Of a stretch of DNA of 64,000 nt, positions 12,973 to 54,970 are shown piece by piece; position 1 is the stretch's first letter; each line of letters begins with the position of its first letter. Source of the DNA: an alpha proteobacterium MED-G09 (GTDB lineage Bacteria > Pseudomonadota > Alphaproteobacteria > MED-G09); the NCBI GenBank assembly GCA_905182015.1, contig CAJIZT010000001.1, positions 32,928-96,927 on the forward strand. The letters are read 5' to 3'. The notes below the pieces were generated by a model. The model saw only the letters and a list, made by a program, of their open reading frames with translations. It made no database searches and had not been told where the DNA came from. Position numbers and translations under genes: made by a program.

Positions 12973-13324
12973 GTGTCAGATGGTTGGATGATCGCTTTTA
13001 TAAAGAGGAAAGTCCGGGCTCCATGGGACACGGTGCCGGGTAACACCCGGCGAGGGTAACCTCAGGGAAAGTGCCACAGAAAATAAACCGCCGCAAGGTA
13101 AGGGTGAAATGGTGCGGTAAGAGCGCACCGCGTATATGGTAACATATACGGCAGGGTAAACCCCATCGGGAGCAAGACCAAATAGGAATAACGATGGGTA
13201 AAACCAGGAATGTCTCGTTCTAGTTATTCGGGTAGGTTGCTAGAGATATATGGTAACGTATATTCAAGATGAATGATCATCACCGTTTATTCGGACAGAA
13301 CCCGGCTTATAGACCGTCTGACAC
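12973..13324 (+). ncRNA. rnpB: RNase P RNA (bacterial class A)
   Basis: The catalytic RNA that trims tRNA 5' leaders. The conserved core is directly readable: GAGGAAAGTCCGGGCTCC (CR I), then CAGGGAAAGTGCCACAGAAA, CCGCCGCAAGGTAAGGGTG, and near the 3' end GGACAGAACCCGGCTTAT (CR V). The outer stem P1 is GTGTCAG at the 5' end pairing with CTGACAC at the 3' end, which sets the limits; the 3' strand is followed by TTTTT. Location directly upstream of mraZ is usual in alphaproteobacteria. Boundaries are good to a few bases. Confidence 0.97.
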
Positions 13325-13390
13325 TTTTTAAAAAAATTATTCAAAATTTTCAATACTTTAAGGGATATTAGTGATTTTTTTTATCATATT

Positions 13391-41079: not shown

Positions 41080-41402
41080 GGTTTCATCCGGTAAGAATTA
41101 AGCAAGGAGCTTCTGTTGCCAGGTGCCCCTCAAACCCCGCCTAATTATGCAAATAATTAGGAGTTAAGTTGAGTTACTCACACATTAAGCTGCGAGAGCG
41201 TACTCTGCATAGTCGCTTTTTGCTTCTATATAATAGCCCGATAACGGCGGAACAATGCCGAGTAAAAAGAAGATTTTTACACTCTCGTCGATCCTATTTC
41301 ACCCCCATAACAAAACTTTGAAATGGTGGAGGTGCCGGGTACCGCCCCCGGGTCCGAATAGTTTATTATATCAACCGTTTATCACTATATCTGGTAAACC
41401 AG
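41080..41402 (-). ncRNA. ssrA: Circularly permuted two-piece tmRNA (tag AKSDYAEYALAA)
   Basis: Rescues stalled ribosomes. On the minus strand the acceptor piece comes first and ends GGCACCTCCACCA (CCA at 41324-41326). A 17-base spacer follows, then the coding piece starts GGGGGTGAAATAGGATCGACG (from 41306). GGGGGTG pairs with CACCTCC as a 7-bp acceptor stem, which is possible only in the permuted order. The acceptor T-arm is CCGGG/CCCGG. The tag ORF (41185-41223) reads AKSDYAEYALAA then TAA. An 8-bp hairpin CTAATTAT/ATAATTAG follows. The outer limits are approximate. Confidence 0.92.
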
Positions 41403-41484
41403 CACTTTCTTTATACATTCTATTAATTAAAATTTGAAGAGACAAAAAGGTAGTTTATAATTAAAATAAGAATCGGAGTTTATT
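41403..41484. promoter_or_regulatory. Short divergent region between ssrA and thyA
   Basis: An 82-base AT-rich gap that must hold the ssrA promoter (minus) and the thyA promoter (plus). No individual box is convincing. The thyA SD CGGAG lies at its right edge, seven bases before the TTG start. Confidence 0.3.
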
Positions 41485-52173: not shown

Positions 52174-53199
<1,026 letters not shown>

Positions 53200-53243
53200 T
53201 TTTAACTTGATCGTTATTAAAAATTAAGGCATTTAAATTAAGT

Positions 53244-53351
53244 ATGAATAAAAACAGTTCAAATATTTTGTATTTAGAAAGTAATAATTTTTTACTTAAC
53301 GCTGTTTTAACGCCCTTAGCTCTTTTATCACTGCTGACTATTTGCCTCTAG
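53244..53351 (+). CDS. Leucine-rich leader peptide upstream of leuA
   Basis: A 35-codon ORF below the track's size limit: MNKNSSNILYLESNNFLLNA, then VLTPLALLSLLTICL and TAG. Eleven of 35 codons are Leu (TTG, TTA, CTT, CTG and CTC all used), with clusters TTA-CTT, CTT-TTA and CTG-CTG near the end. Such enrichment just before leuA and before alternative stem-loops is the hallmark of an amino-acid attenuator. No strong SD is seen (AAGG is 14 bases upstream of ATG). The peptide itself probably has no function; its translation is the sensor. Confidence 0.82.
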   Translation: MNKNSSNILYLESNNFLLNAVLTPLALLSLLTICL

Positions 53352-53416
53352 GACTGTCTTTTGGCGAGGTGTCTTAGGGGAGAATTTTTAAGCCAAAAAT
53401 AATTAATTTTTTGGAG
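53345..53416 (+). promoter_or_regulatory. leuA attenuator: three alternative helices, the last masking the SD
   Basis: Helix A pairs CCTCTAGGAC (53345-53354, containing the leader stop) with GTCTTAGGGG (53371-53380), ten pairs, two of them G-U. Helix B pairs TTTTGGC (53359-53365, in the loop of A) with GCCAAAA (53392-53398). Helix C pairs CCAAAAA (53393-53399) with TTTTTGG (53408-53414), covering the GG of the leuA SD GGAG (53413-53416). A excludes B and B excludes C. A ribosome stalled at the Leu codons would open A, allow B, prevent C and free the SD. Helices are seen; the mechanism is inferred. Confidence 0.7.
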
Positions 53417-53422
53417 ATAGTG

Positions 53423-54970
53423 ATGAGTAAAATAAACAATTACGTTAAGATTTTTGATACAACATTAAGGGATGGAGAGCAATCGCCTGGCGCTTCGATG
53501 TCTTTGAGTGAAAAAATTCAAATTGCAGAAATTTTTGATACAATGGGTATTGATATAATCGAGGCTGGATTCCCTATAGCATCTGAAGGAGATTTTGAGG
53601 CAGTTTCAGAGATTTCGAAAATTGTAAAAAATGTCCAAGTATGTGGATTGGCTAGAGCTGGACAAAAAGACGTTGATCGAGCAGGTGCTGCAGTTAAAAA
53701 TGCCGTACACCCAAGAATACACACTTTTATCGCCACTAGCCCCATTCATATGAAGTTTAAATTACAGATGGATGAAGAGCAAGTTTTAGAGGCTATAAAT
53801 CAATCTGTTTCAAGAGCAAGGAATTTAGTCGAAGATGTCCAATGGTCCGCTGAAGACGCCACCAGAACCGATCGTGAATTTTTATTTAGATGTGTTGAAG
53901 CGGCTATCTTTTCAGGAGCCTCGACAATCAATATACCTGATACCGTAGGTTATACGACACCAGAAGAGTATTATGAGATTATAGAGTCTTTAATTAATAA
54001 TATTCCGTCATCCGACAAAGTAACTTTTTCTACACACTGCCATAATGATTTGGGGCTAGCAGTTGCGAACTCATTATCCGGAGTAAGGGCAGGGGCTCGA
54101 CAAATTGAATGTACAATGAATGGGATTGGGGAAAGAGCGGGCAACGCAGCACTTGAAGAGATTGTTATGTCCATGAAGGTAAGAAAGGATATTCTGAACT
54201 ATGATTCAAATGTCGATACTAAATTATTTACCCGTGCGTCAAAATTAGTTTCGTCAGTCACATCCTTTCCGGTTCAGTTTAATAAAGCTATTGTTGGAAA
54301 AAATGCATTTGCTCATGAATCAGGAATTCATCAAGATGGGATGCTTAAAAATAATGAGACATATGAAATCATGACACCGGAGAGTGTGGGTCTAAGTGAA
54401 TCTACTCTTGTGATGGGAAAGCACTCGGGTCGCCACGCCTTTAAAGAAAAGGCACGTGAACTTGGTTATGAGCTGGGTGACAATCAATTGAATGATTCTT
54501 TTTATAGGTTTAAGGACCTTGCGGATAAAAAGAAAGAAATCTTTGATGATGATATTATCGCAATAATTGATGATGAGTTTTCTTCAAGCGTTGATCAAAT
54601 AAAACTTGTATCATTAAAAATTCAAGCCGGTACATCAGGACCTCAAATTGCTGATTTGGTATTGAGCATAAATGACAAAGAAAAACATTCTGTCTGTGAG
54701 GGGTCTGGACCAGTAGACGCTATTTTTAATTCTATTAGAGATTTATTTCCTCATGATGCTGATCTTCAACTTTATCAAGTACATGCTGTGACACAAGGAA
54801 CTGATGCTCAAGCAGAAGTAAGTGTTCGTTTGCATGAGGGTGGTAAGACAGTGGTTGGGCGAGGAGCGGATACTGATACTTTAGTTGCTTCAGCTAGAGC
54901 TTATATTAGCGCACTGAATCGACTGATCATCAAAAGAAAAAAAGTAAATCCAAGTTTTATTAAAATTTAA
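53423..54970 (+). CDS. leuA: 2-isopropylmalate synthase
   Basis: Condenses acetyl-CoA with 2-ketoisovalerate, the first committed step to leucine. The track's TTG (53411) lies within the attenuator; ATG at 53423 has GGAG six bases upstream and gives MSKINNYVKIFDTTLRDGEQSPGASM (515 residues). The TIM barrel has DTTLRDGEQSPG, the metal site THCHNDLGLAVANSL near 203 and GAFAHESGIHQDG-like KNAFAHESGIHQDGML near 297. The C-terminal leucine-feedback domain is present (VKLVSLKIQAG-like, KTVVGRGADTDTLVASARAY). Probably controlled by the leader and attenuator directly upstream. Confidence 0.96.
   Translation: MSKINNYVKIFDTTLRDGEQSPGASMSLSEKIQIAEIFDTMGIDIIEAGFPIASEGDFEAVSEISKIVKNVQVCGLARAGQKDVDRAGAAVKNAVHPRIHTFIATSPIHMKFKLQMDEEQVLEAINQSVSRARNLVEDVQWSAEDATRTDREFLFRCVEAAIFSGASTINIPDTVGYTTPEEYYEIIESLINNIPSSDKVTFSTHCHNDLGLAVANSLSGVRAGARQIECTMNGIGERAGNAALEEIVMSMKVRKDILNYDSNVDTKLFTRASKLVSSVTSFPVQFNKAIVGKNAFAHESGIHQDGMLKNNETYEIMTPESVGLSESTLVMGKHSGRHAFKEKARELGYELGDNQLNDSFYRFKDLADKKKEIFDDDIIAIIDDEFSSSVDQIKLVSLKIQAGTSGPQIADLVLSINDKEKHSVCEGSGPVDAIFNSIRDLFPHDADLQLYQVHAVTQGTDAQAEVSVRLHEGGKTVVGRGADTDTLVASARAYISALNRLIIKRKKVNPSFIKI

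Follow-up and report, generated by a model that had tools for sequence, protein, structure and literature searches.

A leucine leader ahead of alphaproteobacterial leuA, whose leucine codons probably also mask the leuA start site

The leuA gene of the window (the whole 64,000-nt stretch of DNA analysed) is preceded by a short leucine-rich ORF and a hairpin that are conserved among alphaproteobacterial relatives. This element was interpreted as a ribosome-mediated translational attenuator, which is probably what it is: the leucine codons of the leader would mask the leuA start site, and a ribosome stalled upon them would unmask it. The interpretation draws on several features of the compared sequences, namely the leader itself, a hairpin at its end (helix A), covariation between the leader and the leuA ribosome-binding site (RBS), the scarcity of terminators and the position of the element next to leuA. 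Searches of the open literature found no account of such a leuA leader in Alphaproteobacteria, although the earlier comparative surveys of Vitreschak (2004) and Lopatovskaya (2010) may have noted part of it.

By its relatives, the genome containing the window is an alphaproteobacterium of the PS1 clade (OCS116 cluster). Its leader occupies part of a 223 bp gap between ilvC, which ends at 53199, and the leuA start codon. An earlier note on this DNA had described an ORF of 35 codons here, 11 of them for leucine, and this was confirmed; the translation is MNKNSSNILYLESNNFLLNAVLTPLALLSLLTICL, followed by the stop codon. When the PS1-family sequences were aligned, two blocks resembling CTTGAW and (G)GCATTTA were seen at near-constant spacing in 16 sequences, and these we infer to be the promoter of the leader transcript. 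The ATG of the leader in the window is positioned 8 nt 3' of the CATTTA block, so that the 5' UTR ahead of the leader may be vanishingly short. All features are listed in Table 1.

Table 1. Positions of the leuA leader, its predicted helices and adjacent features in the window.
Feature	Position	Strand	Remarks
Candidate promoter of leader transcript, CTTGAT-18 nt-CATTTA	53206..53235	+	Putative, from PS1-family alignment
Leu leader peptide ORF	53244..53351	+	35 codons, 11 Leu; kept in 16/16 PS1-family loci
Helix D alternative 1, 5' strand, TTTACTTA/CGCTGTTTT	53291..53308	+	Pairs with 53414-53431; whole-leader minimum-energy fold and helix list
Helix D alternative 2, 5' strand, TTTATCACTG (Leu codons)	53324..53333	+	Pairs with 53418-53427, TAGTGATGAG
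Segment matched by covariance model R1	53330..53383	+	28.6 bits; window in training set
Helix A, 5' strand, CCTCTAGGAC	53345..53354	+	Contains leader stop TAG, 53349-53351
Helix B, 5' strand, TTTTGGC (loop of A)	53359..53365	+	9/9 genus leaders; weak class-wide signal
Helix A, 3' strand, GTCTTAGGGG	53371..53380	+	
Helix B, 3' strand, GCCAAAA	53392..53398	+	9/9 genus leaders; weak class-wide signal
Helix C hairpin, CCAAAAA (53393-53399)/TTTTTGG (53408-53414)	53393..53414	+	Folds of the genus; reaches Shine-Dalgarno (SD) sequence
leuA SD GGAG (53413-53416) and start codon, the putative masked site	53413..53427	+	Predicted accessibility
leuA, 2-isopropylmalate synthase, 515 aa	53423..54970	+	

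Conservation of the leader ORF and of helix A among relatives had been named as a check by the earlier note, and both were found at all 16 PS1-family leuA loci recovered, where the stop codon of the leader usually fell within helix A. Leader length varied across the family, and indels within the ORF were multiples of three. Substitutions in the PS1-family alignment showed no third-position bias, and the peptide sequence itself is therefore without clear purifying selection.

Beyond the family, 112 of 144 leuA upstream regions passed the leader finder, three of which were later removed as doubtful. Across the class the ORF ended with Leu-(Leu or Arg)-Leu-x-x-Pro-stop, while the hairpin comprised CCC-TGA as its 5' strand and TCAGGGG as its 3' strand. 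Among 85 non-redundant leaders, codon -4 (counted from the stop) was leucine in 99%, with CTT in 79, and codon -6 was leucine in 93%; codon -5 was CGA for arginine in 46 leaders and leucine in 42%. The sole exception at codon -4 was the window itself, where ACT (Thr) is present at 53337-53339 and leucine is retained at codons -5 and -6. A CGA codon between two conserved leucine codons produces the motif CTNCGACTTA, which may reflect slow decoding or else base pairing, such as GACTTAGGT/ACCTAAGTC.

The hairpin showed strong covariation. Standard base pairs accounted for 95.3% of helix A pair cells in 36 distinct sequences, and there were 44 double-sided changes against 14.7 when shuffled (0 of 500 shuffles), with a sharp fall when the strands were slid out of register. 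The stop codon of the leader itself covaried with the 3' strand, TGA being matched by TCA in 45 cases and TAG or TAA by TTA in 10. At four loci (L202, L207, L222 and L226), the reading frame passed through the usual stop position, which read CCC TGG or CCC AAA, and ended deeper within a hairpin that was otherwise kept. Given these deeper stops, the position of the stop codon varies more than the distance from the last leucine codon to helix A.

A fourth pairing, besides the helices A, B and C that the earlier note had described, was observed in the full-length minimum-energy fold, and joined codons of the leader to the RBS and start codon of leuA. It has two alternatives in the window, of which the second comprises 10 bp (-12.0 kcal/mol) and gives way to TTTTATCTCT/GGAGATAAAA in the sister species (L005-L009). 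Within the PS1 family, the helix upon the leuA start region had been rewired between sister groups, such that UUUAUCACUG/UAGUGAUGAG was found in the group including the window and UUUUAUCUCU/GGAGAUAAAA in the other; counterparts were UUACUCC/GGAGUAA in genus g2 and UACUCCU/AGGAGUA in L016. In predicted ensembles, leader positions -22 to -14 from the stop were most often paired with the region following helix A (0.63-0.71), and their partners were centred on positions -14 to +2 of leuA.

Leucine codons are pyrimidine-rich and SD sequences are purine-rich, so that some complementarity between them is free. This was controlled for by a cross-species test, in which the strands belonging to one species were compared with strands swapped between species, after removing row, column and GC effects (n = 85). 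The strands of helix A gave z = -11.0 under this test. Pairing of the leucine stretch of the leader with the leuA SD region (D) gave z = -7.8 (0 of 5000 permutations), and pairing of the leader with the middle segment just upstream of the RBS (E) gave z = -6.5; when the leader was compared with everything after helix A (D+E), the value was -11.6 (0 of 5000 permutations), or -10.7 after thinning to 70 leaders. An independent set of 26 leaders returned the same direction with a smaller effect for D+E (z = -2.7, 28 of 5000), while D alone scored -1.9 and E alone was non-significant (-0.5, 1501 of 5000). In the cross-table, the native pair was not the strongest in every case, and the evidence for pairing between leader and RBS is therefore statistical. 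The 3' strand of helix A was also tried against the middle segment as a possible anti-structure and produced no signal (z = +1.0, n = 85).

These results bear on the explanation that there is no regulation at all, the ORF being non-functional and the pyrimidine tracts of its leucine codons complementing purine-rich SDs by chance. Such an explanation would accommodate the lack of third-position bias and the resemblance of leucine codons to anti-SD sequence, but it is contradicted by leucine positions that are conserved class-wide, by covariation in helix A, by a location almost exclusively before leuA and by the positive outcome of the cross-species test; we consider it scarcely credible.

The window had originally been thought to contain a three-helix switch of translation, in which helix A prevents B from forming, B in turn prevents C, and the SD is hidden by C; stalling would open A and so allow B to free the SD. 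All three helices were present in the window at the coordinates reported for them, and in 9 of 9 leaders of its genus. The segment from 53330 to 53430 folded at -29.6 kcal/mol (z = -2.89), and 4 of 200 dinucleotide shuffles were as good; the fold of 53340-53425 that had been proposed as a check gave -23.3 kcal/mol (z = -2.28). When this region was shortened from its 5' end, the expectation that B would form and leave the SD open was borne out by folds begun at 53360, inside helix A, but not by folds begun at 53350, because ACUGUCU then paired with the SD side. A B-like pairing was also kept in L016 (TTTGGCTT/AAGCCGAA). However, no counterparts of helices B and C could be recognised in genus g2, within the PS1 family, and their strands were nearly invariant among the nine leaders of the window's own genus, where no covariation was visible. 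Class-wide, helix B (loop of A with the middle segment) produced a weak signal (z = -2.7), while complementarity in helix C (middle segment with SD) was below expectation (z = +4.1, 85 leaders in both cases), and neither was supported by the independent 26 leaders (-0.8 and +0.7 respectively). B and C were thus rejected as class-wide features. Furthermore, the loop of A could pair with the 3' strand of B while A remains intact, as a pseudoknot, and mutual exclusion of A and B is not assured. What stands of the original proposal is a conserved leucine leader, a helix A that contains the stop codon and a probable action on translation initiation; B and C do not stand as a general switch, and a three-helix mechanism is unlikely. 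The two helices may represent an added, genus-specific layer of control.

The absence of a terminator-like element from the leader in the window, as the earlier note had reported, was confirmed, and this was not peculiar to the window: an intrinsic terminator-like hairpin followed by a T-run was identified in just 4 of 109 leaders. A leucine-rich leader followed by a strong hairpin containing the stop codon is also what a classic attenuator of the enterobacterial leu leader type would display, and there is precedent for termination before leuA in gammaproteobacteria such as Shewanella (PMC2659441). Yet with terminators so scarce, and no match to the Leu_leader family of Rfam, this is a very improbable description of the element. 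The scarcity of intrinsic terminators calls for a mechanism that works without them, and Rho-dependent termination would provide one, if completed translation of the leader and formation of helix A exposed RNA to Rho ahead of leuA and stalling prevented this. Some leaders do appear to have unstructured spacers. However, the covarying partner of the leader is centred on the RBS (-14 to +2 of leuA), for which Rho-dependent control has no need, and we regard this mechanism as rather improbable.

Control of translation was examined through the predicted accessibility of the SD. With the leader present, this was 0.04-0.17 in L001-L004 and 0.02-0.05 in L005-L009. When only downstream RNA was folded, values for the window's genus ranged from 0.02 to 0.19 by group while the leader was free of ribosomes, were approximately 0.35 with the ribosome edge placed over the leucine codons, and 0.4-0.5 once helix A had been opened. 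The class-wide mean rose from 0.35 to 0.53 with the ribosome edge at 10 nt before the stop, again folding downstream RNA only, and the gain was small (0.35 to 0.42) where upstream RNA was allowed to pair past the ribosome; these class-wide differences are modest and depend on the thermodynamic model. In L001-L004, the SD stays partly paired through helix C. Low SD accessibility that rises with the ribosome, together with the near absence of terminators, makes a translational attenuator the best reading. The suggestion that translation initiation is the point of control was therefore supported in preference to an intrinsic terminator, although the masking strand appears to be the leucine codons and not helix C.

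According to the translational reading, in RNA without ribosomes, or once the leader ribosome has departed, the 3' coding stretch with its leucine codons would pair with the RBS and start codon of leuA and with the segment upstream (D and E). Helix A, carrying the stop codon of the leader, would close the fold, and the start site of leuA would be masked. Where charged tRNA-Leu is scarce, a ribosome would stall on leucine codons some 4-6 codons before the stop, and its footprint would take in the masking strand as well as the 5' side of helix A, leaving the RBS free for leuA to be translated. A ribosome of usual footprint size, standing at codons -4 or -6, reaches the 5' strand of A. The leucine codons would then serve as sensor and masking strand at once. 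That the leader is translated, that ribosomes stall on it and unmask leuA, and that the system responds to leucine are all conjectured here from sequence comparison.

To evaluate the distribution of the element, a covariance model (R1) was made of the leader end and helix A, using 41 training sequences that included the window. Matches occurred in at least 133 of 385 alphaproteobacterial genomes, with one copy in nearly all of these; such tallies are lower bounds, since the genome search missed the window's own copy, which cmsearch found when applied to the window. In a draw of genomes across the phylum, where the number from other classes is unspecified, 42 of 42 matching genomes were Alphaproteobacteria. 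Inspection of 70 matching loci, for two of which (L178 and L192) the script made no call of gene context, placed nearly all of them ahead of leuA, mostly of type I. At L196, L205, L212 and L214, the element preceded a LeuA-like protein of approximately 555 aa that is distant from LeuA of the window (26-27% identity where measured), so that the element seems to be tied to the function of leuA and not to a single leuA family. An ORF of 118 aa was situated between the element and leuA at L210, and probably at L208 too. Two matches, L201 and L203, were not ahead of leuA and look like false matches. At the gathering threshold, no Rfam family, the Leu operon leader (RF00512) included, matched the site either in the window or in 13 relatives, nor did any match the region 53150-53480 at a relaxed threshold (E <= 5).

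Several known systems resemble the element in part. In translational attenuators of the ermC type, a stalled leader ribosome frees a masked SD, as is proposed here; unlike these, the signal would be starvation at leucine codons, and the masking strand would be the coding sequence of the leader itself. The Leu operon leader of Enterobacteria and gammaproteobacteria (RF00512; Shewanella version, PMC2659441) shares a leucine-rich leader peptide before leuA and alternative folds set by ribosome position, but acts through intrinsic termination. Leaders of trp (rnTrpL of Sinorhizobium, PMC10117765) and ilv (Caulobacter, PMC4117421) come from Alphaproteobacteria and likewise encode amino acid-specific peptides, and the trpL leader ORF of S. 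meliloti is leaderless (PMC10117765), where that described here may be nearly so; in contrast, both were reported to be transcription attenuators.

Of the systems already described, the actinobacterial LEU element comes closest; in it, a run of leucine codons upstream of leuA pairs with the leuA SD (Seliverstov et al. 2005, PMC1262725). The two have in common an upstream ORF with a run of leucine codons before leuA, a base stem between leucine codons and the leuA SD (helix D here, weaker in the independent set) and no obvious terminator. They differ in phylum, and in that the closing hairpin described here usually holds the stop codon of the leader (CCCCTGA/TCAGGGG). The LEU element has a pseudoknot within its base stem; by the complementarity test used here, as opposed to a dedicated pseudoknot search, the loop of A showed weak signals with both the SD (z = -2.1, n = 85) and the middle segment. 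R1 was searched within Alphaproteobacteria and the phylum draw, and the likeness to LEU described here is one of logic. We tentatively suggest, with the case for it nearly balanced, that this is an undescribed element found throughout Alphaproteobacteria, either parallel or related to LEU, in which leucine codons double as the strand masking the RBS, with neither a terminator nor a separate anti-SD.

Textbook accounts of amino-acid attenuation in proteobacteria usually describe termination of transcription. If the suggestion is correct, a class-wide, terminator-free leucine leader would shift one of the commonest forms of biosynthetic control to translation in Alphaproteobacteria, by means of a compact design in which one set of codons both senses and masks, and would account for unannotated small ORFs before leuA. 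Being absent from Rfam as searched, the element could be added there as a family.

Other observations concerned the remainder of the genome. A second, 28-nt match to the leader (G000:C6:71864) had no leucine leader nearby and was set aside as an apparent chance AT-rich likeness. The window also contains two structured RNAs, namely an RNase P class A RNA at 12976-13325 on the forward strand and a permuted alphaproteobacterial tmRNA at 41101-41442 on the reverse strand.
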